Source of the DNA: Methylohalobius crimeensis 10Ki
GTDB lineage: Bacteria > Pseudomonadota > Gammaproteobacteria > Methylococcales > Methylothermaceae
Assembly: GCF_000421465.1 (NCBI RefSeq)
Contig: NZ_ATXB01000001.1
Location: 62,001-126,000 of the forward strand
Direction of reading: 5' to 3'
Length of the DNA: 64,000 nt
A program made the position numbers and the translations under genes. Of the stretch, positions 17,490 through 41,811 are shown in pieces. Below the pieces are notes generated by a model. It made no database searches. It worked only from the letters and a program-made list of their open reading frames with translations, and was not told where the DNA came from. Each line of letters opens with the position of its first letter. The stretch's first letter is position 1.

Positions 17490-17793
17490 AGTCTGTTTCA
17501 AAACTCGTGTGAGGGTCGGAGTAATCGCGAATGCCATTATCCCCCTTGTATGTTTTGTCTTGCTGGAGAGGCGTGTCGCAAAAGCTCCTCTCCCGCTGGC
17601 GGGAGAGGGGCGGGGTGAGGGTGGTCAAATAAAAAAGTCTTTCATTTCAATTAGATCCACCCTCATCCTAACCTTCTCCCGCCAGCGGGAGAAGGGACAC
17701 TTCTTGAGTCATTCTCGGACGGAGAGGAAATTAAGGGGGGACGTCATGCCTCATAGGCTTGCTTGTACGGTATATCGAGTTTTGAAACAGACT
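17490..17793. mobile_element. Miniature inverted-repeat element, copy 1
   Basis: The 18-base terminal repeats are perfect: AGTCTGTTTCAAAACTCG at 17490-17507 and its inverse at 17776-17793. TTAG at 17486-17489 and 17795-17798 could be a target duplication. The inside holds two hairpins built on CTCCCGCTGGCGGGAG and no credible gene. A second copy in inverted orientation lies at 54444-54696. The size, lack of coding capacity and terminal repeats fit a MITE mobilised in trans. Confidence 0.75.
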
Positions 17794-28752: not shown

Positions 28753-29713
28753 TTCATTGCATATCGCCGTGGGCGTCATTCGCGACGCCGAGGGTGGCGT
28801 TCTGCTTTCCCGCCGTCGTGAAGACGCCCATCAGGGCGGTTTGTGGGAGTTTCCGGGAGGCAAGTGCGAACCGGGCGAGCCGGTTGCCGAAGCCTTGGCG
28901 AGAGAACTGGGCGAAGAATTGGGTATCCGAGTGACCGCTGCCCGGCCTTTGATCCAAATCCGGCATGCCTATCCGGATCGACGGGTGGTTTTGCACGTGT
29001 TCGAGGTGACCCGTTTTGAAGGCGAACCGATTGGACGTGAGAACCAGACCCTGGTGTGGGCGGCACCGATAGCGCTGGATCGCTATGCGTTTCCGGCCGC
29101 CAACGGACCGATTTTGACCGCCCTCCGCTTGCCGCCTTTTTATCCCGTCCTCGAAAGCACCGCGACGGACGCTCGGACCGGCGATGACCAATCGACCTAC
29201 CGGCGGCGCTTTCACGCCTTGCTCGATCGGGGCGAGCGCTTGATTTACTGGCGCGCTCGAAATCTTTCTCCGGCGGTCTATCGGCGCTTGGCGAAGGAGT
29301 TCAGCCAGGCCATGGGGGCGAAGGGTGGCTGTCTCATGATCCGCGCCGATTCCGAGGAATTCGCTGAATCAGCCGAGCTATGCCCCCGTGCCGGACTCCA
29401 TTTGAGCGGCCGTCAACTGCATACCCTGTCGACCCGGCCCGCCGGCTGGCGCTGGGTGGGAGCCGCCTGTCACAGCCTCGCCGATTTGCGGCAGGCCCAA
29501 GCCTTGGGGTTGGATTTCGCCGTCTTGTCTCCCATTTCGATCACCGCCACCCACCCGAGAGCCACCCCCTTGGGATGGGAAGCCGCCCGGCGCTGGCTCG
29601 GCCAGATCAATCTGCCGGTCTATTTGATGGGCGGCCTTGAGCGCTCGGATCTCGACCGGGCCCGCCTTTGCGGCGCCCGGGGCGTCGCCGGCATCCGCCT
29701 GTTTCTCGACTGA
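28733..29713 (+). CDS. Nudix hydrolase fused to a ThiE-like domain
   Basis: This 326-residue fusion has an N-terminal MutT-type Nudix domain with the full box GGKCEPGEPVAEALARELGE ending ELGI, and the mutator-specific start HIAVGVIRDAEGGVLLSRR. The C-terminal half (from about 160) resembles thiamine phosphate synthase: GLHLSGRQLHTL, GAACHSLADLRQAQALGLDF, LSPISITATHP and MGGLERSDLDRARLCGARGV. This fusion is common next to argJ/secA in gammaproteobacteria. The Nudix half should hydrolyse 8-oxo-dGTP. The other half may have no thiamine role. Confidence 0.92.
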   Translation: MRNTAPDSLHIAVGVIRDAEGGVLLSRRREDAHQGGLWEFPGGKCEPGEPVAEALARELGEELGIRVTAARPLIQIRHAYPDRRVVLHVFEVTRFEGEPIGRENQTLVWAAPIALDRYAFPAANGPILTALRLPPFYPVLESTATDARTGDDQSTYRRRFHALLDRGERLIYWRARNLSPAVYRRLAKEFSQAMGAKGGCLMIRADSEEFAESAELCPRAGLHLSGRQLHTLSTRPAGWRWVGAACHSLADLRQAQALGLDFAVLSPISITATHPRATPLGWEAARRWLGQINLPVYLMGGLERSDLDRARLCGARGVAGIRLFLD

Positions 29714-29762
29714 ACGGATTTCTACTACTATTAGAGGAGCGCGGAATGATAATAGGCATGAA

Positions 29763-31115
29763 ATGGGGTTACTCAGGTATTTTTTTCGCTCACAGGCGGA
29801 CCGGTCGCGTAAACGGCAGGAGGTAGCGGCAAAGCCAGCCTTCGAGCGCGCTTCCTCAATCGACTCCGATTCCGCGCCGATGCTTCCCGAGCAGTTGAGG
29901 AAGCTCATTCCATGCAATCATCTCAATGGGTCCGAACTTAGCTTGTTGCTGCCCGCTTGTCGCAGCCATCGCTATCCGCCGGGTACGCTGTTATTTCAGC
30001 AAGGTCCGAGCGACGGCACCGCTTTTTACTTGTTGGACGGAGAAGTAATGCTGGTGCGTGGTGAGCAGATCCGGGCGGTTTCTTCCGGATCGAAGATGGC
30101 CCAATATCCGCTGGCCTGCGGGAGTCATTACGAAACCACGGCCACCGCCAAAACCGACGTGACTCTGCTGTCCCTGCCGGAATCGGCCATGCTTACCGCC
30201 TTGGAGAATAAGCGCGCCAAGTCCATCGATGCCGCCGGTTTAAGCGTCGATTTCGCGCAATTGCCGGACATTTTACGCCAGAGCGAGGTGTTTTATACCT
30301 TCTGGCGCACTTATCGGGAAAACTCCTTGACCCTGCCGACGCTGCCGCAGGCGGCCATCCGCCTGCGCGCGGCGATGCAAAAAGAGATCGGCGCGGATGA
30401 AGGCGCCCGGATCATTCAAACCGATCCCATCGTCACCGCCCGCTTGATTGAAATCGCCAATAGTCCGCTTTACTCGGGCGTAACCCCCGTAGCCACCTGT
30501 CAGCAGGCGATTGCGCGTATCGGTCTCAATGCCGCCCGACAGTTGGTTACCGCATTGACCGTGGGGCGCTTGTTCCAGTGTCGGCAAAAGAAGGTCCAGC
30601 GCCAAATTCAAAGCATCTGGCGGAACAGTGTGCGGGTTTCATGCTTGAGCTATGTATTGGGGCGCCATATTGGCGGCGTGGACCCGGAGCAGGCTTTGCT
30701 CGCCGGTTTGATGTCCCATGTGGGTGCGTTGCCGTTCTTGTACTTTGCCGCGGATTTCCCCGCCGATTCGCTTTCGGAAAACATGTTGCAGGCCGGGGTA
30801 CGGGCGGTTCGGGGAGGCTTGGGGATTCAGATGCTGAAAGCTTGGGGGTTCCCCGAAGAGATGTGCGGTATTCCCGCTTTTTGCGACGATTGGTTTTATC
30901 ATGCCCCCGGGCCGACCCGCTTGACCGATATCGTGATTCTGGCCCACTGGCATGCCCGTCTGGGGCGGAGAAAAACCGGGGAGCTGCCTCCCATCGAGGT
31001 CTTGCCGGCTTTTCAGAAACTGGATATGCGGCAAATTTCTCCGGAATTCTCACTGAATCTATTGCATAATGCTCAACAGCAAATCGAGCAAGTCCGAATG
31101 TTCTTCGATTACTGA
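29763..31115 (+). CDS. Cyclic-nucleotide-binding-like / HDOD domain regulator (first of two)
   Basis: This 450-residue protein has a CAP-like effector domain (about 55-160: PPGTLLFQQGPSDGTAFYLL and DGEVMLVRG), then an HDOD domain (about 195-400) with LPTLPQAAIRLRAAMQ, IIQTDPIVTARLIEIANSPL and LLAGLMSHVGALPFLYFA. HDOD proteins are output modules of signalling cascades without HD catalysis. The ATG at 29763 follows AGG by 6 bases. A paralogue of the same architecture starts 6 bases after its stop, so the pair arose by tandem duplication and is co-transcribed. Confidence 0.85.
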   Translation: MGLLRYFFRSQADRSRKRQEVAAKPAFERASSIDSDSAPMLPEQLRKLIPCNHLNGSELSLLLPACRSHRYPPGTLLFQQGPSDGTAFYLLDGEVMLVRGEQIRAVSSGSKMAQYPLACGSHYETTATAKTDVTLLSLPESAMLTALENKRAKSIDAAGLSVDFAQLPDILRQSEVFYTFWRTYRENSLTLPTLPQAAIRLRAAMQKEIGADEGARIIQTDPIVTARLIEIANSPLYSGVTPVATCQQAIARIGLNAARQLVTALTVGRLFQCRQKKVQRQIQSIWRNSVRVSCLSYVLGRHIGGVDPEQALLAGLMSHVGALPFLYFAADFPADSLSENMLQAGVRAVRGGLGIQMLKAWGFPEEMCGIPAFCDDWFYHAPGPTRLTDIVILAHWHARLGRRKTGELPPIEVLPAFQKLDMRQISPEFSLNLLHNAQQQIEQVRMFFDY

Positions 31116-31121
31116 AGTTTT

Positions 31122-32435
31122 ATGTTGGAACGACTATTAGGAAAACGGGGCGGTTCGAGCACCGGCCAGGGCCGCAAACCGTCGGGAAAATTTCCGCCGC
31201 GTCCGATTACGGTTACCGAACTTCAGCAGTTGATTCCTTTGCGCAGTCTGAGCGAGGAGGAGTTGAACGCGTTCGCCTTGACCCAGCGGACCGAGACCTA
31301 TGCGCCCGGATCGGTCCTGTTCGAGCGCGGCGAAACCGAGGCGCATGTCTTCTATCTTCTGAGAGGGACGGTGACGATGAGGCTCAATGATGAGCAAAGT
31401 TACGAGGTCGCCGCCGGCACCGCCAAAGCCAGGTTCCCCCTTTCTTCCGGGGAGGCCCACAATACCACCGCGATCGCCCGGACCGACGTGGAGGTGATTC
31501 GGGTCTTGGCCAAGGTCATGCGGAAAAATTTGAAGGATCAGATGGAAGATGACCGGTTGCTGGATCCAAACCGTTGGCGGGCGCCCAAGCAACTCCGTAA
31601 TAGCCAGTTGTTCCAGGCATTTTGCCAAAATTTCCTCAACGAGGAATTGACGCTGCCTACCTTGCCCGATATCGCCCTGGCGCTACGCCGGGCCATCGAA
31701 AAGGAGGATATCGGCGTGGCCGAGGCGGCCAAAATCGTCCAGGCCGACGCTTCCATCGCCGCCAATTTGATGCATATTGCCAACAGTCCCTTGTATCTCG
31801 CCGCGAACCCGGCCCGCACATGCCTGGAAGCGATCAACCGCCTCGGTCTCAGGGCGACGTGCAATCTTACCCTTTCCCTGTGCATGCGCAATGTCTTTAA
31901 ATCCAAAGATGCGTTTTTATGTCAAAAAATGCGCGATTCTTGGCAGGAAGGGCTCCATGTTGCCGCCTTGGCTTACGTCCTGGCCAAGGATAATCACTGG
32001 CACGATCCCGAGGAAGCTTTCCTGGCGGGACTGATCTGCAATATCGGCATCATTCCTTTTTTGACCTTCGCCGACGGCTTTCCCCAGTCCTATTATCAAA
32101 AGGAGGAAGTCGACGCCGCCCTTCCGGTCATTCGCGGCCCTATCGGATACTATATCCTGCAAAAATGGGGTTTTCCGGATGAGTTGGTGGAGATTCCGAG
32201 AAGAGCCGATGTCTGGCATTACGATGACGATCCCGAATTGTCCCTGGGGGATATCGTGATGTTGTCCAGGCTGCACCGCTACATGGAAACCTCCCGCATG
32301 AACGAAGTTCCGCCGATCAACTCCATTCCCGCTTGCAACAAGCTGCGCAACGGCAGCTTGTCGCCTGAATATTCCCTACAAGTGCTTTGCGACGCCCGCA
32401 CCCAGGTACAAGAAATTCTGAGAATTCTGCGCTAA
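31122..32435 (+). CDS. Cyclic-nucleotide-binding-like / HDOD domain regulator (second of two)
   Basis: This 437-residue paralogue of the preceding gene has a CAP-like domain with YAPGSVLFERGETEAHVFYL and LRGTVTMRLND, and an HDOD domain with LTLPTLPDIALALRRAIEKE, IVQADASIAANLMHIANSPL and AFLAGLICNIGIIPFLTFAD. The two have diverged strongly outside these blocks, so they probably receive different signals. No residues specific for cAMP phosphate binding (R-T-A/S-x-x) are obvious in either. It converges with the lytic transglycosylase gene, overlapping by 4 bases. Confidence 0.85.
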   Translation: MLERLLGKRGGSSTGQGRKPSGKFPPRPITVTELQQLIPLRSLSEEELNAFALTQRTETYAPGSVLFERGETEAHVFYLLRGTVTMRLNDEQSYEVAAGTAKARFPLSSGEAHNTTAIARTDVEVIRVLAKVMRKNLKDQMEDDRLLDPNRWRAPKQLRNSQLFQAFCQNFLNEELTLPTLPDIALALRRAIEKEDIGVAEAAKIVQADASIAANLMHIANSPLYLAANPARTCLEAINRLGLRATCNLTLSLCMRNVFKSKDAFLCQKMRDSWQEGLHVAALAYVLAKDNHWHDPEEAFLAGLICNIGIIPFLTFADGFPQSYYQKEEVDAALPVIRGPIGYYILQKWGFPDELVEIPRRADVWHYDDDPELSLGDIVMLSRLHRYMETSRMNEVPPINSIPACNKLRNGSLSPEYSLQVLCDARTQVQEILRILR

Positions 32436-33413: not shown

Positions 33414-34028
33414 TCAGGCAAGCAGGTTTTGCAGAAGTTCGCCCAACGTTTCCTGTTGCCTGTCCAAACGCAGGCGGTCGGCAATCAAAATGCTTTTGAG
33501 TTGACCTAAGGCTTGCTCGAAATGGTCGTTCACGACCAAGTAATCGTATTCGGCGTAGTGGGATATTTCGGCGCGGGCGTCGCGCATGCGCCGGGCGATG
33601 ATGTCTGGTCTGTCCTGGCCGCGTCCGCGCAGCCGTTCTTCCAAAATGTCCCGGGCCGGGGGGAGAATAAAGACGGAACGGCTGTCGGGCAGCTTTTCCC
33701 GCACCTGGCGCGCGCCCTGCCAGTCGATTTCCAATATGACGTCCAGGCTCCGCGCCAGATTTTCCTGAACCTGAGCGCGAGCGGTGCCGTAATAATTATC
33801 GAAGACCCGTGCGTATTCCAGGAAGGCGTCCTCGGCGAGCATGGTTTCAAATTGCTCCCGGGTGACGAAGCAATAATCCTTGCCGTCCACCTCACCGGGT
33901 CGCATGGACCGGGTGGTGTACGAGACGGAAATCACCACATTCTCCAATTCTTCCCGCAATTGTTTCAACAAGCTGGTCTTACCGGCGCCCGACGGGGCGG
34001 AAACGATGAAAAGCGTGCCTTTAGCCAT
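33414..34028 (-). CDS. gmk: Guanylate kinase
   Basis: This 204-residue enzyme phosphorylates GMP to GDP. The P-loop is FIVSAPSGAGKTSLLKQL. The GMP site contains SYTTRSMRPGEVDGKDYCFV, and ILEIDWQGARQVR and FILPPARDILEERLRGRGQD follow. In many bacteria it lies directly downstream of yicC. Here the two are separated by a 6.9 kb insertion with the Mks/Wadjet operon. A roughly 200-base noncoding gap lies on each side. Confidence 0.97.
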   Translation of the reverse strand: MAKGTLFIVSAPSGAGKTSLLKQLREELENVVISVSYTTRSMRPGEVDGKDYCFVTREQFETMLAEDAFLEYARVFDNYYGTARAQVQENLARSLDVILEIDWQGARQVREKLPDSRSVFILPPARDILEERLRGRGQDRPDIIARRMRDARAEISHYAEYDYLVVNDHFEQALGQLKSILIADRLRLDRQQETLGELLQNLLA

Positions 34029-34236
34029 GGTTATTCGGTTTGTTGGATTGGGTTATCGAGTGAAAAAAATTTTATTAAAGCAATTTCCTCGGTCAGCGGT
34101 CCATGCCGTTCGATAAAGTGACACGATTTTACCCCGTGGGATGTTGGACGGTGGGAGCGAGATGACGCTGACGGTTGCTACAAAATAACGTTGGATTTGC
34201 CCTGACTCGTTGGCAAAGATGCCCCGGCTTGATGGG

Positions 34237-35127
34237 TTAGGTCGTGTCCACCCATACCGCCTCTTGCTCCAGCGCCATCCCAAGGGATTGCATCGTCCGG
34301 ATCAGTTCAAGCACTTCCGGTTCCAGCACAAGCTCGGTCAGGCGGCGTTGCGCTGCCTGAAATTCTCTTGCCGTACCTTGCCACAGCTCCGCGTTGCCGT
34401 AACGGCGCAAACGGGATTCCCACGCGGGCATGAGCCAGAGCTGAACGGCGTCGCCCAGCCGTTCCTTGATGCGCGCATAGTTGAGCAGGCCCACCCCATC
34501 GTAGTCGGGAAAGAACCGGACTCTGGCGGCACGGGGCCGTGCCGCCAGCCATTCGATCAATCCCTTGCGCAGTTGACCGCCATAGTAAGCCACACTGGCG
34601 TGCATTCGATCGGGCAGCCAGTCGAGCCGGTCGAACAGCGCCTGATTTTCGACTAGCCAGAGCGTTCCGGCCGTATGCCAGCCACTGTCTTTTCGCATGT
34701 CGTTGTCGATGGCCAGAACGGCAGCGCCTTGCCGGACGGTGGCCAGGTCCAGGTCTAGTCGATGACCGGCGCCATCGCGCCATTGAACCGGGCCGGCCGC
34801 TTTCAGCAGCAGGTAGTGAAGGTCGTGACTGTGGAGGGATCTCTTGCTGAAGCGAGCGCGGGCGATGTTGCCGGCGCGCTTGGGTAGATCGGCATCCAAC
34901 TCGTCCGCGTCGATGGGGGTCAGGTCGCGCCAATGGCGCTCGACCACGGCCGGTTGCACGATGCGGTAGAATACGCCGCGGCCGCGGGGCTGGATCTGCA
35001 CGCTGCCGGTCTGACGGGCGAACGCATCCAGCGCCTTGCGTTGGGCGCTGCTGAGTTGCGAGCCGGCCAGCCGATCGTCTTGGGCCCGACACAGCTTGCC
35101 CAGCGCGGCCCGCAGAGCGCGGCTCAT
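34237..35127 (-). CDS. mksG: Wadjet nuclease subunit MksG/JetD (TOPRIM-like)
   Basis: This 296-residue protein is the DNA-cleaving subunit of the MksBEFG/JetABCD plasmid-restricting condensin. The C-terminal half has a topoisomerase VI-like TOPRIM fold: LWLVENQALFDRLDW carries the conserved Glu160, and RVRFFPDYDGVGLLNYARIK carries Asp208 and Asp210. The N-terminal part is basic and arginine-rich and probably binds DNA or MksB. The ATG at 35127 overlaps the mksB stop, and a longer in-frame start at 35214 would lie inside mksB. It is the last gene of the operon. Confidence 0.88.
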   Translation of the reverse strand: MSRALRAALGKLCRAQDDRLAGSQLSSAQRKALDAFARQTGSVQIQPRGRGVFYRIVQPAVVERHWRDLTPIDADELDADLPKRAGNIARARFSKRSLHSHDLHYLLLKAAGPVQWRDGAGHRLDLDLATVRQGAAVLAIDNDMRKDSGWHTAGTLWLVENQALFDRLDWLPDRMHASVAYYGGQLRKGLIEWLAARPRAARVRFFPDYDGVGLLNYARIKERLGDAVQLWLMPAWESRLRRYGNAELWQGTAREFQAAQRRLTELVLEPEVLELIRTMQSLGMALEQEAVWVDTT

Positions 35128-37889
35128 GGATTTGCCTCGCTCAATGACTCGAGTACCTGCCAGCTCTGACGGCTGATATGGTTTTTGCCGTTGTGATGCT
35201 GGATCGGCACGCAATAGCGAACGGTGGTGAGGGGCGCCGGCGAGGCGAAGATCAGGGCGAAACCGAATTCGTGGGCGGTTTCGATCAGATGGGTCTGGTT
35301 GCGGGCGTCTAGCGCCAGGGCTTCGTCCAGATAGCAGACGGCGCGAACCTGATGCCGCTGATCCTGCATCAGGTGGAGCATCGCCAATCCGGTCACCAGT
35401 TTGGCCATCAGCACCGTGCCGTTGGAGGCGGCGCTGTCGATGTCCTGAAAAGCGTCCGCCGGCTGGTCGAGCTTGCCCACCACGAATTCCAGCCGGAATA
35501 GGTCGGCGACCTTCAATCCCTGGCGCGCATTCCCCTCGTCGATCAGGATCTGCTTGGCCCGATCCAGCTGCTTGTCGTCGAGGACGCTGGCCTGGTTGAA
35601 CAGCTCGAAGCTTTCGCCGGTCTCCACTTGTGCGGCGGTGTCGATCAGGGTGTTGATGGCCGTCACCAGGTGGGTTTCGTCTTGCGGTTCGATTTTGAAG
35701 GTTTTCAGATCCGACAGCTGGCGGTGGCCGATCAGACGGTTGAATTCGCGCATTTTACTTTTGAACGAGAGCAGGCCGTCGCGCAGCTCCCGGAGGCTGG
35801 CGGTCACGTTGACCACGGCGCTGCGCGCCTTCTTCTCCAGCGCCTCTCTCTCCCGGGGCAGTTGCCGGCTGAAGTCGATGATGGCTTTCAGCTCCCGGTC
35901 GGGGCTGTCGCTGTATTGGTACTTGGTCAGGCCGCCGGAATGCAGCTCGCGCAGGTCCGTCCGCAGGGAGTGATCCAGGTCCTGCAGACGGCGGCAGTCG
36001 CGCTGGTAGGTTTGCAGCTTGTCGGCCAGCCGATCCAGCGCCCAGCCGGTTTCTTCCAGCCAGGGGTGATGGTCCAATCGATCCAGATAACCGAAGATCT
36101 CGCTGCTGTCGCCGCGCTGAGTTCGGGCGCGTTCGATGGTCTGGTGCTGATTTCGCAGATTCGCCTGATCCTGCCTGACCCGATCCAGGCGGTCTTGAAG
36201 CTGTTTGGCCGTTTCCTCCGATTGTTTCAGTGCCTGCTCGACTTCATCGAGTTGTTGTTGCAGCTGTGTTTGCCGGTTCCGCCGCTCGGGCGCTTCGTCG
36301 AGCAGCTGTTGCAGCCGGTCATAGTCGGCCAGATCCTGTTCCCGCTGACGTTTTTCCTGTTCCAGTTGGTGCTTCTTGTGCTGCGCATCCGCCAACCGCT
36401 CGGCGGCCTGCAACTGTTCCGCCAACGCCTGCAACTGTTGCCGCGTATCGGTCAGTTGTTCGTCCAATTCCGCTTCGGTCAGCTGTCGGTGCTGCGGACT
36501 CAATGAGGCCAATGTCAGGGACAGGCCGGGCAGTTGCAGCCGGTTCCGATCCGACTGCGCCAGCATCTGCCGCAGCGGCTCGATGTCCAGGGAGAAGGTC
36601 TCCGGCGCCAGCGTCATCACCGGCGGGCTCAATACCCGGTTCAACCGGTCGAGTTGATCCGCCGACAAAGATTCGCCGAGACGGCGATAGAGGTTGTCAT
36701 TCAGGTGCTCGCGCTGTTGTTCCAGCTGCGCCAGCTCGCGTTGCCGGGTTTGTTGATCGCGGCGAATGGCCGACACCGGCCGCCCGCTGATCTGGCCCAG
36801 GAGTGTGGTCTGCCGATCCAGCTGTCGCTCGCACTCCGCCAGCCGATTCTCCAGCTCCTCGCGTTCGTGGACCAAGGCAAACCGGCGGGACAGCGCTTCC
36901 ATTTTCTCATCTTCTTCCCCCAGGGTTTTGCGTTGCTGGGTCAGCTCGAACCGCTCGGTCGTCAATTCCCGGTCGCGCGCGGTCTGCCGGCGCTGCGCTT
37001 CTCGCAGCTCCCTTTCCTGATCGGCCAGGGATTGCTGCCGGCTGTCATAGTGGCTTTGCCAGGCGGCCAGACCCTGATCGACCCGCGGCCGCCAGTCGAT
37101 CAGTTTGCCGCGCAGTTTCAAGCGTTCCTCGTAGTCCCGCGCCATTGCCTCGATGCGTTCGAGCTGATCGACCGCCGCCCGATACTGGTCGCGCTCGGCG
37201 TTGACCTCGGCAAACGCCTTGTCCCATTCTTGTTTGAAATCGATATTGGCGTCCGGCAGGTCGCGCTTGAAGATCTGCAGCAGATAGGCCTTCACATCGG
37301 TCGAGCTGAGCTTGTCGAGCCGCAGGGTGCGGGTCAGCACCTGCTGGAAGGCCTGCGCGTCCGAGGCGTGTTCCAGCTTGAACACGGTAAAGTCCGGCTC
37401 GTTGCCGCTGCGGGTTCTGCGGCCGCCGTAGATCAGGTCGCGGAATTCCGTCGGATTGTATTTGAACACCAGCCGCTCCCGCCGGGCGAGATGGTTGACC
37501 AGCTGCGGTTGAGGTGCCAAGGAGCCGTCCTTTTGCCGATAATCCTCCACCACCAGCGGGCCCTTGTAGGCGAAGTATTCATATTCATGACTGACGCCTT
37601 TGCCGACGCAGCCCAGCACCGCCGTGCCGATCTGGGGCAGGCTCACCTCCAGCAGGATATAGGCGCTGTTGCCGGGAAAGTAGAAGCGGCGGGTCTTGTC
37701 GAAATCGTGGGCGCCGAAATCCATGCGCCGCCGGTCGATGATCAGCAGAAACTGAAGCGCGTTGATCAGGCTGGTCTTGCCCGTGTTGTTGGGCGCGATC
37801 AGGGAAACCGAGTCATCCAAGGGCAATTCGGCCCGCTGATAGCCGGCGCTGCCGAGCAGCACCAGGCGCTGAAAGCCATGTTGAATCAT
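35124..37889 (-). CDS. mksB: SMC-like condensin ATPase MksB/JetC
   Basis: This is a 921-residue SMC/MukB-type ATPase. Walker A is SLIAPNNTGKTSLINALQFL (A32-T39) near the N-terminus. A long coiled coil rich in Gln, Glu, Arg and Leu spans about residues 235-700 with a hinge-like break. The C-terminal head carries Walker B VRAVCYLDEALALDARNQTH and the FALIFASPAP segment. It is shorter than MukB (about 1480) and in the range of MksB. It should load on DNA, extrude loops on small circular DNA and license MksG cleavage. It overlaps both neighbours by four bases. Confidence 0.9.
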   Translation of the reverse strand: MIQHGFQRLVLLGSAGYQRAELPLDDSVSLIAPNNTGKTSLINALQFLLIIDRRRMDFGAHDFDKTRRFYFPGNSAYILLEVSLPQIGTAVLGCVGKGVSHEYEYFAYKGPLVVEDYRQKDGSLAPQPQLVNHLARRERLVFKYNPTEFRDLIYGGRRTRSGNEPDFTVFKLEHASDAQAFQQVLTRTLRLDKLSSTDVKAYLLQIFKRDLPDANIDFKQEWDKAFAEVNAERDQYRAAVDQLERIEAMARDYEERLKLRGKLIDWRPRVDQGLAAWQSHYDSRQQSLADQERELREAQRRQTARDRELTTERFELTQQRKTLGEEDEKMEALSRRFALVHEREELENRLAECERQLDRQTTLLGQISGRPVSAIRRDQQTRQRELAQLEQQREHLNDNLYRRLGESLSADQLDRLNRVLSPPVMTLAPETFSLDIEPLRQMLAQSDRNRLQLPGLSLTLASLSPQHRQLTEAELDEQLTDTRQQLQALAEQLQAAERLADAQHKKHQLEQEKRQREQDLADYDRLQQLLDEAPERRNRQTQLQQQLDEVEQALKQSEETAKQLQDRLDRVRQDQANLRNQHQTIERARTQRGDSSEIFGYLDRLDHHPWLEETGWALDRLADKLQTYQRDCRRLQDLDHSLRTDLRELHSGGLTKYQYSDSPDRELKAIIDFSRQLPREREALEKKARSAVVNVTASLRELRDGLLSFKSKMREFNRLIGHRQLSDLKTFKIEPQDETHLVTAINTLIDTAAQVETGESFELFNQASVLDDKQLDRAKQILIDEGNARQGLKVADLFRLEFVVGKLDQPADAFQDIDSAASNGTVLMAKLVTGLAMLHLMQDQRHQVRAVCYLDEALALDARNQTHLIETAHEFGFALIFASPAPLTTVRYCVPIQHHNGKNHISRQSWQVLESLSEANP

Positions 37890-38491
37890 CGCATATCCTC
37901 GCTTGCGGTCGGCTCGTCCCGATCAAGCTCATCCTCGGCTGCCGCCGGTTCATCCGACGCCTCGCGGCTCTCGGCGGCCAGCGCCTCGAAATGATCGAGG
38001 TAGCGGCACACCGCCGGCAACAGCTGCCAATGGCCGCCGGCTTCCCGCGCAAACCCGAAGCGCGCGGCGGTCTCCAGCAGGCTCGCCAAGCCCTCGGTAT
38101 CCAGCCCCTCGGCGGTCAGCAGCTCCTGATGTTGTTCATGCACGGTGTTCAGCAGCGACCGATCGATCGCCCAGTCGCCGAAGCGCAGCAAGGGCTTGCC
38201 GGCATCCGCCTGGGTATCGAAGATCACCATGAAGAGCAGCGCCAGCTGGCGGGAGGTCTTGTTGACGTTACCGCTGGCTTCCTCGGTATGAAACCAGGCA
38301 AATCCGCGTCCATCCAGTCGCAGATCGTAACCGAGCGCGCCGAAGAGCGCGCGGTAAGCCGCCTCTTCGCGTTCCAGCTCGGCCCACAGCATGGGATCGG
38401 AGAGCCGGTTGATGTGTTTGCCGTTGCCCAATTCCCTGAACAGCGTCGCCAGGTGAGTGAGCCGGTCCAGCGCCAGCGGGGTATCCGTCAT
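37886..38491 (-). CDS. mksE: Condensin subunit MksE/JetB (DUF4194-like)
   Basis: This 201-residue winged-helix KITE-type subunit is equivalent to MukE. Recognisable blocks are FRELGNGKHINRLSDPMLWA, then YRALFGALGYDLRLDGRGFA and TSRQLALLFMVIFD. The tail (about 170-201) is acidic and disordered. It bridges MksF and MksB. The ATG at 38491 overlaps the mksF stop; the in-frame sequence before it is not protein-like. Position and size between the F and B subunits support the call more than any single motif. Confidence 0.85.
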   Translation of the reverse strand: MTDTPLALDRLTHLATLFRELGNGKHINRLSDPMLWAELEREEAAYRALFGALGYDLRLDGRGFAWFHTEEASGNVNKTSRQLALLFMVIFDTQADAGKPLLRFGDWAIDRSLLNTVHEQHQELLTAEGLDTEGLASLLETAARFGFAREAGGHWQLLPAVCRYLDHFEALAAESREASDEPAAAEDELDRDEPTASEDMR

Positions 38492-39762
38492 GAAGCGGCA
38501 TCCTCGGGTAACGGTTGCAACTGATGGGGATGATAGTGTACCCGCAGTGCCTTCAGATCGGTGGTGGTGGTCTGCGGTTGCAATTGTGCTTGCCACCGTG
38601 GCTCGCGCACCAGATCGTGATAGAGGCGCAGCACGACGGCATCGGGCAGGGTCGGATACCGCTGCTGCAGCCAGGTCATCAGATTGTGCACCGGCAGTGC
38701 GGCCTGAAGCGCTTCGCGCAGTTCGGTCTCATCGATCCAGGCGCTCAAATCGGCCGGATCGGCCGGTAATTCCTCCGGGAAGGCCTCTGGTCGAGGCGTA
38801 TAATCCCGGGCTTCGGCCATCAGGGTGCGGATCTCGTCCCCCAAATGAATGCGGCTGCGGCGCTCCCGTTGCCACAATGGCAGCTTGCTTTGCGCGCCGT
38901 GGCGTCGCAATCCGCGGGCCAGCCCCTGTTTGCGCACCCGACCCAGCAGATGGCTGATGGATGCCGACAGCTGATTATGTTGCCGTGCCTCTTCCCGCAA
39001 CGGCAACAGCGTATCGGCGCATTGCTGGGCGACGACCCGCCCCAGGCGGCGCAGCTCCTTGGCCTGATAGGCCACCTGCCGCAGTTGCAGGCGGTGGGTG
39101 TAGAGCGCTCCGCGAACCGACAGGACTTCCGTGGCCGCATCCAGCGCCTGCTCGGCCGCGACCAGATAGGGATAGAAGGTGCCGTCGGAGCCGCTGTCCA
39201 TCATCTCGTTCATCGGTTCGACATACTGATCGTAGGCTTCCAGCACGGCTTGATAGCGCCGGTCGATGGGCATGGCGGCGTCGCCGGCCTTGGCGTTTTC
39301 CGCCAGTTCCAGGATGGCATGGCGGTCCTGATCCAGCTGCTGACCGATCTGGCGGAACAGTTCGGAAAGGCGCCCCGCTCCGCGGCGCATCAGATCGGAA
39401 TCGTTCCGATGCAATCCTTCGCGGAGCTGCTCTGTCGCCTGCCGAATCGCCTCGACCCGGGCCTTGAGCACCGACGACAGCCCCAGCTCGTGCTCGCGGG
39501 TCAGTCCGCGGACAAATTCCAGCACCAGGGGGTTAAGCTGCAGGTGGGAGGTGCGACTCAGAAGCTGCAGCAAATCCGCGTTGCAGAGGGAGCGCAGGGC
39601 GGCGGCGTGGTCTTCCGGCCCGGCCCGGGGCTGATGCTTGGCGATCACCGCCAGCACCTGGCGCTCTTCGAAGGCGGGCATATCCCGCGATGCACGCGCC
39701 AGGTCTTCGATGATCTCCCAATGTCTATGCAGTTGGGCGACGAGGCTTTTCGGGGTGGCCAT
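38488..39762 (-). CDS. mksF: Kleisin-like condensin subunit MksF/JetA
   Basis: This 424-residue, mostly helical protein starts with a winged-helix-like segment (AQLHRHWEIIEDLARASRDM) followed by VLEFVRGLTREHELGLSSVL and RVEAIRQATEQLREGL. The helical middle contains DRRYQAVLEAYDQYVEPMNE then MMDSGSDGTFYP. The C-terminal winged helix (about 340-424) would close the MksB ring. It resembles MukF-type kleisins of Mks systems rather than the DUF3375 JetA form, as far as I can judge by eye. It is the first gene of the operon. Its ribosome site is weak, so the upstream promoter needs mapping. Confidence 0.82.
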   Translation of the reverse strand: MATPKSLVAQLHRHWEIIEDLARASRDMPAFEERQVLAVIAKHQPRAGPEDHAAALRSLCNADLLQLLSRTSHLQLNPLVLEFVRGLTREHELGLSSVLKARVEAIRQATEQLREGLHRNDSDLMRRGAGRLSELFRQIGQQLDQDRHAILELAENAKAGDAAMPIDRRYQAVLEAYDQYVEPMNEMMDSGSDGTFYPYLVAAEQALDAATEVLSVRGALYTHRLQLRQVAYQAKELRRLGRVVAQQCADTLLPLREEARQHNQLSASISHLLGRVRKQGLARGLRRHGAQSKLPLWQRERRSRIHLGDEIRTLMAEARDYTPRPEAFPEELPADPADLSAWIDETELREALQAALPVHNLMTWLQQRYPTLPDAVVLRLYHDLVREPRWQAQLQPQTTTTDLKALRVHYHPHQLQPLPEDAAS

Positions 39763-40046
39763 AAAATGCTTTAACTTCTCTGACGAGGTTTTCCTTTTAC
39801 AGGTTATTTTGCCATATCATCGGGACTGTCCCTCTGCTGAGGCGGGATTAGTAGGGAAGCCGTAGGAATCGTTATCCCCCCGCTGGCGGGGAGGGAGGAG
39901 CGAGGGTGTGGTCAAAGAAAGATTTGATTCCCCCTCATCCTAGCCTTCTCCCCCAAGGGGAGAAGGGACTATGCCGATGGTGAACAGTTGTTTCCGTCCT
40001 GGTGTGAGCGGGAATCGGAAGCCTCCTCTTGCGATTGCCGTGCTGC
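39763..40046. other. Gene-free leader of the mks operon
   Basis: These 284 bases hold no credible gene. They contain the promoter region of mksF, which reads toward lower coordinates, and one repeat of the miniature-element core at 39875-39970. I see no clear -35/-10 pair by eye. Confidence 0.5.
39875..39970. repeat. Core-only relative of the miniature element
   Basis: CCCCCGCTGGCGGGG, a GAGGGTGTGGTCAAAGAAAG stretch, then CCCTCATCCTAGCCTTCTCC and a second hairpin ending GGGAGAAGGGA follow the same order as the inside of the element at 17490-17793. The AGTCTGTTTCAAAAC ends are missing. It lies just upstream of mksF and downstream of the MIT-domain relic. Confidence 0.55.
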
Positions 40047-40270
40047 CTAAGCCTGCTTGATAAACGTTACCTCGAAGGCCTTGCCGGAGCGAAACTGCTG
40101 CAGCCGATTGGCAAAAGCAAAGGCCTCGTCGTTCATCTCGTAGTGTTGGAATATATCCAGGCCTTTGTCCAGCGATATCCTCCAGCCGTGGTCCGTTACG
40201 ATATGACGGGCGTGAATGGTGCCGGTTTCGTCAAACTCCCAAGTGAAGTCGACATGAATCGTGCCGGGTT
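40047..40270 (-). pseudogene. C-terminal remnant of a MIT_C/phospholipase D-like domain protein
   Basis: About 70 codons remain without a start: FTWEFDETGTIHARHIVTDH, then GWRISLDKGLDIFQHYEMND and AFAFANRLQQ, ending KAFEVTFIKQA. From memory this is the conserved end of proteins with a MIT C-terminal (phospholipase D-like) domain that occur in phage-defence loci. It is joined in a different frame to the start of a RecQ-like helicase at about 40267-40270, so the genes between were deleted. Confidence 0.55.
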
Positions 40271-40401
40271 CGCTGAACTACCAGTAGCTTTTTGCGCTGG
40301 CTTACCAAAGCATCAATGGCTTCCCATTGGCCACTACGGAAGCTTGCGGTTGCGTTTCCCACCGCAGTACGCAGCAACGCTTCAGCATCGGTTCTGTTCA
40401 T
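40267..40401 (-). pseudogene. N-terminal remnant of a RecQ-like DNA helicase
   Basis: A 45-codon fragment begins at an ATG and encodes ASFRSGQWEAIDALVSQRKK followed by LLVVQRT, the Q-motif and the start of the helicase up to just before its Walker A loop. The next bases belong to the MIT-domain relic. The reading is lost, so no helicase can be made. Confidence 0.6.
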
Positions 40402-40436
40402 AGGTCATTCTTATTACCATTGGATAGCCGCATCGC

Positions 40437-40760
40437 TTAAATGCCAGCAGACGGACGCCATGCGGCCCGGCCTAAACATTGTGCCGACAGCACACGGAAA
40501 TACGTGCGCCACTCATTGCGCAGCCGGGACAGGATAATCAGGCTGTCGATGGGCATGGCGGTGCCAGTCTGTTCCTCGCGCTCGACGATCATGCGCAGGA
40601 ATTCGGCGTCCGCGTCCGCCGCGCTCATGCGCACGGATACCTTGTGAGCGGACGACCTGGAATAGTCCGGGGCGGTACGTCCGTAGCGGAGCATGCCCTC
40701 GAAGATTCGGTCGATGCCCCGGCCCGTGCGTTCGGCCAAGCTGGATTGCCGCTGAACAAA
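40437..40760 (-). pseudogene. C-terminal remnant of an AlbA_2/ATP-binding DNA-binding protein
   Basis: The fragment contains LAERTGRGIDRIFEGMLRYG, then RTAPDYSRSSAHKVSVRMSA and FLRMIVEREEQTGTAMPIDS followed by LIILSRLRNE. This is the ATP-binding C-terminal region of RecG-like/AlbA_2 transcriptional regulator-type proteins, which are frequent in defence islands. The N-terminal AlbA_2 domain is missing and the sequence after LRNE looks like noise before the stop. Confidence 0.5.
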
Positions 40761-40804
40761 GTCCGGTCCTTGATCACGGCAAGCAGGCGCTTCTGCCTGT
40801 GACC

Positions 40805-40913
40805 GGGTTTTGCTGTACTTTTTCGTCGATGCGCTCCTGCAGGATGTCCAGTTGGCCTTTGAGCTGCTGAATGCGATCACAGTCAAATTCAGTAAAATTC
40901 TTTCTTTAAAGTG
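40805..40913 (-). pseudogene. Unidentified coding-like fragment with heptad pattern
   Basis: One minus-strand frame gives NFTEFDCDRIQQLKGQLDIL then QERIDEKVQQN. Its composition is protein-like and its spacing resembles a coiled coil, but there is no start and it ends in stops. I cannot name a family. It lies between yicC and the AlbA relic and is probably another piece of the decayed island. Confidence 0.25.
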
Positions 40914-40944
40914 CTATAAGAACGCGACAAAACGCCATAGAACA

Positions 40945-41811
40945 TCATTCTATATTCTGCACCTGCTCGCGCATTTGCTCGATCAAGACCTTGATTTCGA
41001 TCGCGTACTGGGTCAATGCGGTGGAAGCCGACTTGGCGGCCAGGGTATTGGCCTCGCGGTTCATTTCCTGACATAGAAAGTCCAGGTGCCGGCCGATGGG
41101 GTGATCCTGAGTCAGGAGGCGGTCCGCTTCCTCCAGATGGGTGTCGAGCCGGTCCAGTTCTTCGGTCACATCCCATTTCTGAGCCAGGTAGACCAGCTCC
41201 TGTTCGAGCCGGTCGAAATCCGGGGTCTGCCCCAGTTCCCGGATTTTCCCCAGCAGTTTTTCCCGCAACTGGGGAAGCGCCTGCGGCAGGGCCTGACGGG
41301 CTTGGGTCACTTGCCGGTGTATTTCTTCGCAGCGCTGGCGGAGAAATTGCGCCAGTTGGACGCCTTCCCTTTGGCGCATCGTCAACAGTTTTTCCAAGGC
41401 CGCCTCGAGGCTTTCCAGGGCGGCGGCCTCTACCGTTTCCCGATCCATGCCCGCTTCCTGCAAGACGCCGGGCCAGCGTGCCACTTCCAGGGGAGATACC
41501 GGTGCCGAAGCTCCCAGCAAGGGTTCGATTTCCGAAAGCGCCCGGACCACCGCTTCGGCGACCGGCCGGTTGAGTTCGAAGGCGAACGAAGCATCCGTGG
41601 ACGGTCCCAACTTCAAGGCGCATTCCACTTTACCCCGGTTGAGACGGCCGCCGATCCGTTTCCGGATCTCGGGCTCTAAGAAGCGCAGATTGTCCGGCAG
41701 GCGGAGGATCAAATCCAAATAGCGGGAGTTGAGCGAGCGGATCTCCCAGCGAACAGTGTAGTGTGGTGTCCGGCCTTCGTGCTCGGAGAAGGCGGTCATG
41801 CTGTAGACCAT
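40945..41811 (-). CDS. yicC: YicC/YloC-family endoribonuclease
   Basis: This 288-residue protein begins MVYSMTAFSEHEGR and has WEIRSLNSRYLDLILRLPDN, FLEPEIRKRIGGRLNRGKVE and the C-terminal DHPIGRHLDFLCQEMNREAN followed by TLAAKSASTAL. The last block holds the acidic and His residues thought to form the active site. YicC proteins are RNases linked to sRNA (RyhB) decay. The start at 41811 aligns with the E. coli start; the next ATG at 41799 is possible. It is divergent from the kinase gene by 66 bases. Confidence 0.94.
   Translation of the reverse strand: MVYSMTAFSEHEGRTPHYTVRWEIRSLNSRYLDLILRLPDNLRFLEPEIRKRIGGRLNRGKVECALKLGPSTDASFAFELNRPVAEAVVRALSEIEPLLGASAPVSPLEVARWPGVLQEAGMDRETVEAAALESLEAALEKLLTMRQREGVQLAQFLRQRCEEIHRQVTQARQALPQALPQLREKLLGKIRELGQTPDFDRLEQELVYLAQKWDVTEELDRLDTHLEEADRLLTQDHPIGRHLDFLCQEMNREANTLAAKSASTALTQYAIEIKVLIEQMREQVQNIE

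Follow-up and report, generated by a model that had tools for sequence, protein, structure and literature searches.

The mks operon and its subunits

The window, a 64,000-nucleotide stretch of the Methylohalobius crimeensis 10Ki genome, carries four intact minus-strand genes in the order mksF-mksE-mksB-mksG at 34237-39762, each adjoining pair overlapping by 4 bases. They lie between yicC and gmk in the following arrangement:

40945-41811, minus strand: yicC, left neighbour; YicC-like_N 1.7e-41 and YicC-like_C 3.4e-40 in Pfam
39763-40944, no strand: decayed spacer of 1.2 kb from operon to yicC, part of the insert, with gene remnants and a dispersed repeat
38488-39762, minus strand: mksF, 424-aa kleisin, MukF-like; NF040857 7.7e-32
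37886-38491, minus strand: mksE, 201-aa KITE subunit; PF21980 (MksE) 8.8e-34, NF040858 9e-28
35124-37889, minus strand: mksB, 921-aa SMC ATPase; NF040859 7e-107 over residues 3-905
34237-35127, minus strand: mksG, 296-aa TOPRIM nuclease with an N-terminal winged helix; PF23947 (DUF7281) 2.8e-8
34029-34236, no strand: gap of 208 nt from the mksG stop to the gmk start, the other edge of the insert
33414-34028, minus strand: gmk, right neighbour; 21 of 25 relatives have a best match of 54-77% identity

The right neighbour we take to be gmk from the look of its sequence and from its place beside yicC in relatives. For mksE we use the ATG start, which gives the 4-base overlaps with mksF and mksB; the ORF list gives a longer GTG frame. 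MksB denotes the SMC subunit here, following the papers, while NCBIfam uses the reverse; its names look swapped, the 926-aa SMC model NF040859 being called condensinMksF and the 412-aa kleisin model NF040857 condensinMksB. The family matches of all four subunits are far above chance level. A first-pass annotation of this DNA had proposed a complete MksFEBG operon, and the full frames, the 4-base overlaps and the family matches for kleisin, KITE, SMC and nuclease bear it out, including those at 38488-39762 and 34237-35127, on which the proposal had been staked.

The same annotation had described an intact Walker A and Walker B in the 921-residue SMC, and both are seen in the window and conserved in an alignment of 75 MksB sequences. 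The motifs read APNNTGKT (Walker A), AASNGT (signature) and CYLDEA (Walker B); the signature is AASNGT in 74 of the aligned sequences and AASTGT in the remaining one, and, counting from the six commonest variants listed, APNNxGKT occurs in at least 74 rows and CYLDEA in at least 62.

The kleisin had been suspected not to be a DUF3375 protein, and rightly so: its sole Pfam match is a spectrin model (0.029, below cut-off). An AlphaFold model of MksF, built with 45 relatives, has a pLDDT of 81 and a pTM of 0.46. Compared with solved folds, its top eight matches are all MukF chains (Z 12.3-14.2, with large rmsd), followed by the next unrelated entry at Z 11.5; the type II JetA 9qe0 scores Z 10.3 with an rmsd of 29 and E. 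coli JetA Z 8.7. By sequence, the PDB holds no credible match for any subunit, MksE having been searched as a single sequence only.

The MksG nuclease

MksG matches DUF7281 (PF23947) with 34 bits, over the gathering cut-off of 27, and a literature search for DUF7281 found no paper. The first-pass annotation had picked out Glu160, Asp208 and Asp210 as intact; these are joined by Glu287 and Glu289, and all five are kept in 65 of 65 MksG rows (the window plus 64 of the 73 loci with mksG, restricted to frames of 280-330 aa). We infer that these acidic residues are the catalytic ones by comparison with C. glutamicum MksG, for which E236, D279, E349 and E351 are described (PMC10123090); order and rough spacing resemble those seen here, and it is on these that the mapping is based.

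The AlphaFold model of MksG, built with 57 relatives, has a pLDDT of 93. Its first VIA-align match is C. glutamicum MksG (8b7f, Z 13.1, 159 residues, rmsd 3.0) and its fourth is P. aeruginosa JetD (7til, Z 12.0, 163 residues, rmsd 3.4), with topoisomerase VI A also among the top matches (Z 12.6). The matches span residues of about 100-295; over the whole model the TM-score is a modest 0.32-0.43. At the N-terminus, residues 1-79 resemble winged helices (Z about 6-7), which may be no more than a common arrangement.

An insertion between yicC and gmk

In the window, 6.9 kb separates yicC from gmk. Among nine congeners, gmk was found in eight, and in all eight yicC stands directly before it, the aligned parts of the two genes being only 6-12 nt apart, stop codon included; a match to MksB was found in 0/9. 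Thus, the operon is an insertion at a site that is empty in 8/8 congeners with gmk, as the first-pass annotation had supposed, and it is not fixed at this place in relatives, the outcome by which that annotation would have stood corrected. A search of 60 relatives for MksB gave a full-length protein in one (G021, 61%) and weak N-terminal matches in two; the Mks copy of G021 sits elsewhere, since yicC adjoins gmk there on another contig.

The insert begins at the 3' end of yicC, a known mobile-element target as described in PMC8409611. Site-specific integration was considered and set aside: no integrase was seen in the three minus-strand spacer frames and, among the 20 families listed of at least 60, no direct repeat joins the two edges (the yicC 3' end included). 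A tRNA site was likewise dismissed, as the window contains no tRNA. The spacer holds the remnant of a HATPase_c_4 protein at 40437-40886 (0.0034, 17.8 bits, below cut-off), that of a MIT_C domain at about 40056-40262 (7.4e-15) and, at 39920-39975, one copy of a roughly 50-base dispersed repeat that recurs at 23 further places in the genome, one of them in the window near 17650. In one relative (L089), a reading frame encoding BrxL and MIT_C domains lies upstream of mksF, and it is the only neighbour in the relatives that matches the spacer (54% over 69 aa). A resemblance of one spacer fragment to RecQ, suggested by a motif, was dropped when Pfam gave no match. Elsewhere in the window, at 29637-32435, lie two adjoining look-alike ORFs, the second of which Pfam identifies as a cyclic-nucleotide-binding and HDOD protein.

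Could the operon itself be decaying and inactive? The gene remnants in the 1.2-kb upstream spacer would fit, as would the consensus scan, which found nothing resembling a promoter upstream of mksF on the minus strand; the four full-length frames, the retained overlaps and the intact catalytic motifs, however, make this very improbable.

Relatives, neighbours and movement

One scan of 84,980 species genomes gave 77 loci related to the operon. In 73 of these mksG lies directly downstream of mksB, that is, in 73/73 where the contig runs past mksB; in L131, L143, L145 and L150 the contig ends within the length of mksB or just past it. Only the start of mksG precedes the contig end in L079 and L127, and mksG is in two pieces in L082 and L139. 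MksB is encoded in a single frame of at least 880 aa in 70 of the 77 loci; it is shorter or interrupted in L082, L139, L140, L143 and L147, cut by the contig end in L131, and was not obtained from L150. Judging by record titles, alpha-, beta- and gammaproteobacteria are among the hosts, as are Acidithiobacillus and two Verrucomicrobia MAGs, whose short contigs make mis-binning possible. Two near relatives (59% and 55%) and four distant ones are plasmid-borne, on plasmids that include one of 156 kb in Halioglobus and one of 190 kb in Polaromonas. E. coli gave no DNA match to 37000-39762. Carriage by phages was also considered and rejected: MksB has no match in phages, and none of 45 pattern-matching stretches in IMG/VR encodes a relative.

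The site between yicC and gmk is used elsewhere, too. Among 60 loci with at least 3 kb of upstream sequence, yicC lies upstream of mksF in four (L074, L075, L077, L139), and in each of these the contig also carries gmk, some 5 to 17 kb past mksG, so that the interval also holds the operon in Saccharospirillum and Oceanisphaera. As three of the four loci belong to one genus, this amounts to two lineages beside the window. The interval additionally holds type I restriction genes, Abi_2 and a PIN-like gene in S. impatiens (L218), a Schlafen-group helicase in Saccharospirillum sp. M30B14 and HipA in Oceanisphaera.

At other sites, the neighbourhood is in part shared. In L108, the operon is accompanied by GmrSD_N, AlbA_2 and HipA; its GmrSD_N gene is common to 13 of 56 loci with at least 4.5 kb upstream (L091, L093, L094, L096, L097, L100, L103, L105-L108, L125, L133), and its downstream gene, an AAA ATPase, to 14 loci. 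Ten of the 13 share both, and they span several proteobacterial classes. When loci from different hosts are paired (10 loci), the main aligned pieces are 8-15 kb long, surround the operon and are 93-96% identical in DNA; their MksB proteins are 91.5-98% identical. About half of the downstream 9 kb is found on Raoultella, Aeromonas and Klebsiella plasmids, where there is no near match to the operon. To judge by these sequences, the operon moves between classes.

Some of these neighbours, restriction and Abi_2, are of anti-phage types, and a Wadjet system in Clostridium is described as hindering conjugation (PMC12287153). The operon could thus be an anti-phage or more general anti-mobile-DNA system, whose main target would be phage or conjugating DNA rather than small plasmids. 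The studied relatives, however, are described as acting on plasmids (PMC10586767, PMC10123090), and we regard this alternative as unlikely.

A different role is suggested by the core subunits, which are nearest to the P. aeruginosa-type MksBEF, described as a chromosome organiser (PMC7485682): the operon would encode a second chromosomal condensin as in P. aeruginosa, and MksG would trim or repair DNA rather than destroy invaders. Against this stand the absence of MksB from 9/9 congeners and the empty site in 8/8, the presence of a separate Smc gene in the same genome, and the linkage to MksG in 73/73 loci where it would be visible. Moreover, seven of the 77 loci are from Pseudomonas or Stutzerimonas, and in five of these the genome holds a core-type MksB over the cut-off besides. 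A role as a second chromosomal condensin is therefore quite improbable.

Phylogeny of the SMC subunit

A quick tree of 82 SMC-head rows, in which 38 of the 70 loci with mksB of at least 880 aa together with L029, L030 and L052 served as the relatives, unites the window with these 41 in one branch (SH-aLRT 100). This branch nests in a Pseudomonas-type branch of 55 rows (SH-aLRT 98), which also takes in core MksBEF, nuclease-bearing plasmid copies and an MksFEB beside tamA-tamB that has no mksG (L207). Wadjet I stands apart, as do a DUF3584 type and a group in which the genes are ordered differently. Types II and III are missing from the trees because searches with PADLOC JetC2 and JetC3 (200 genomes each) gave nothing beyond partial matches of low score, the best at 29 and 32 bits. 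A more careful full-length tree of 37 rows, with 17 of the 41 relatives plus L230 and L231, recovers the window branch (100/100) and the core branch (100/99), and the deep order within the Pseudomonas-type branch is not resolved in it.

A further Mks group (L187-L194, L205, L206) has an SMC of about 960-1010 aa, with a KITE-like gene after the SMC gene in six of the ten loci; in L187, L190 and L191 a weak nuclease-like match stands first, and at 1e-4 PADLOC matches neither the SMC nor the kleisin-sized protein of L187. DUF7281 nucleases also occur near an SMC of about 1230 aa (L199, L208-L213), which is of the DUF3584 type by Pfam in L199, where it has no PADLOC Jet match at 1e-4, and by tree and layout in L208-L213. 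A core-branch mksE-mksB pair in G705 (L232) has no detected kleisin or MksG and a gene with an SNase domain downstream.

The origin of the P. aeruginosa MksBEF from a JetABCD-like defence system through nuclease loss has been suggested (PMC10586767), and the nuclease-bearing relatives allow this published proposal to be tested. Across 200 bootstrap trees, the nuclease-bearing in-group rows formed one clade in 0% and the nuclease-free rows in 8%; the former as one clade were weakly rejected (p-AU 0.037, for a group named after seeing a tree), the latter were not (p-AU 0.127). The trees lean to nuclease loss in the condensin lineages, a tendency that depends on a long outgroup and long branches. 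Sixteen of 398 sampled genomes pass the core SMC cut-off, and 0/16 gave a DUF7281 match, a search that a distant nuclease could escape; two of them (L214, L215) have no mksG-like frame around the operon. It is quite possible, though we put it forward tentatively, that the branch is a living form of a plasmid-cutting ancestor of Pseudomonas MksBEF, which would have lost its DUF7281 nuclease on domestication; copies with the nuclease would have continued to spread among distant bacteria, in some cases entering genomes that already hold the domesticated form. Where one genome has both forms, defence and chromosome roles can be compared within one cell.

Proposed function in plasmid defence

We propose that the operon probably encodes a defence complex, an MksBEFG of the Pseudomonas-type branch gained by horizontal transfer, that would extrude and cut small circles. 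This proposal draws on the conservation of the ATPase motifs and of the five acidic MksG residues (65/65), on the family and fold matches, the constant linkage to mksG, the patchy occurrence, the empty site and the genome's own Smc gene, and on the neighbours in relatives, which include restriction, Abi_2, PIN, a Schlafen-group helicase, HipA, GmrSD_N and AlbA_2. The five relatives with a shorter or interrupted mksB count against it. From homology and context, the role would very probably be plasmid defence, most likely by extrusion and cutting of small circular plasmids as in Wadjet.

How might such a complex work? Extrusion, size sensing and cutting are here modelled on Wadjet type I. Dimers of MksB would load on DNA and extrude loops using ATP, with the MukF-like kleisin as a bridge and MksE bound to them. 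On a small closed circle, extrusion would run to completion and then stall, and the stall would allow a dimer of MksG to engage the DNA and cut it; the long DNA of the chromosome would be spared. Size sensing and activation rest on analogy, since no solved structure matches the subunits credibly by sequence. The trigger may also differ from that of type I, as MksB is about 200 residues shorter than JetC and MksG about 90-110 residues shorter than two JetD1 models. Finally, the plasmids on which relatives sit, such as those of 156 kb (Halioglobus) and 190 kb (Polaromonas), must escape cutting.

Comparison with Wadjet types and Mks condensins

The first-pass annotation had called the operon Wadjet, a label that holds in the broad sense, as an operon of SMC, kleisin and KITE with a MksG/JetD-like TOPRIM nuclease, in which the SMC ATPase and TOPRIM residues are intact. 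As to the types, PADLOC and Pfam place the operon in none of I-III. The annotation had also looked to Jet and Mks models for a placement, and these gave a divided answer, with matches to MksE and NF040857-NF040859 and only weak ones to the PADLOC Jet models. For the kleisin, neither Pfam nor PADLOC gave a match to a DUF3375-type JetA up to 0.1. The DUF4194-type JetB model PF13835 scored 0.015 (15.4 bits against a cut-off of 32.7), and MksB matched JetC1 in PADLOC at 4.5e-7 (26.5 bits, best stretch 433-722). The type I models themselves work, as a type I control SMC (L151) scores E=0 against the same library. MksG matches PADLOC JetD1 at 5.2e-7 over residues 130-292 only, the TOPRIM half, and has no JetD_C or DUF3322 match in Pfam; the JetD_C match of one relative (L030) reaches 20.4 bits against a cut-off of 22. 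With type I as the library's only control, the type II models gave JetB2 6e-4, JetC2 3e-4, JetD2 1e-4 (the best, 1.1e-4) and no JetA2, and the type III models JetC3 0.019 and JetD3 0.0043. A core MksB from Pseudomonadaceae (L034) has no PADLOC Jet match at 1e-4 either. The operon in the window stays below the equivalog cut-offs of NF040857-NF040859 (110/750, 97/400 and 358/1900 bits).

On this sequence evidence, the operon is best placed as an MksBEFG of a branch close to the Pseudomonas-type MksBEF that PADLOC does not recognise. It marks a subtype that this tool misses and whose nuclease is a domain of unknown function in Pfam. As a subtype it is useful, and it may be an evolutionary link, but the system is of a known kind. 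MksBEF was reportedly named in a 2011 paper, and the mksFEBG operons of P. aeruginosa PA14 and P. putida we take to be type I systems. These two are described in PMC10123090. In the literature on MksG, MksBEF and the Wadjet types, no such subtype is named in the titles and abstract openings among the matches listed; the presence of MksG across the Wadjet group is mapped in PMC7617805, whose data set may already list the branch.

Among known systems, the P. aeruginosa-type MksBEF is nearest to the core of the operon, with the same SMC, KITE and kleisin families across most of their length and a place in one supported branch of the SMC tree. However, the operon scores far under the equivalog cut-offs and carries MksG, whereas the P. 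aeruginosa complex is nuclease-free. With Wadjet type I JetABCD and C. glutamicum MksBEFG, it has in common the kleisin-KITE-SMC-nuclease order, the TOPRIM fold of MksG and a partial JetD1 match, but its SMC has 921 aa against JetC1 model lengths of 1093-1215, its MksG is shorter, at 296 aa, than two JetD1 models of 387 and 409 aa, and its kleisin lacks DUF3375. Types II and III have the same four kinds of subunit, and the type II kleisin 9qe0 is among the fold matches, with weak matches in sequence. E. coli MukBEF, finally, has in MukF the fold nearest to MksF, but it is described as having no nuclease (PMC7617805), whereas the operon in the window carries MksG.
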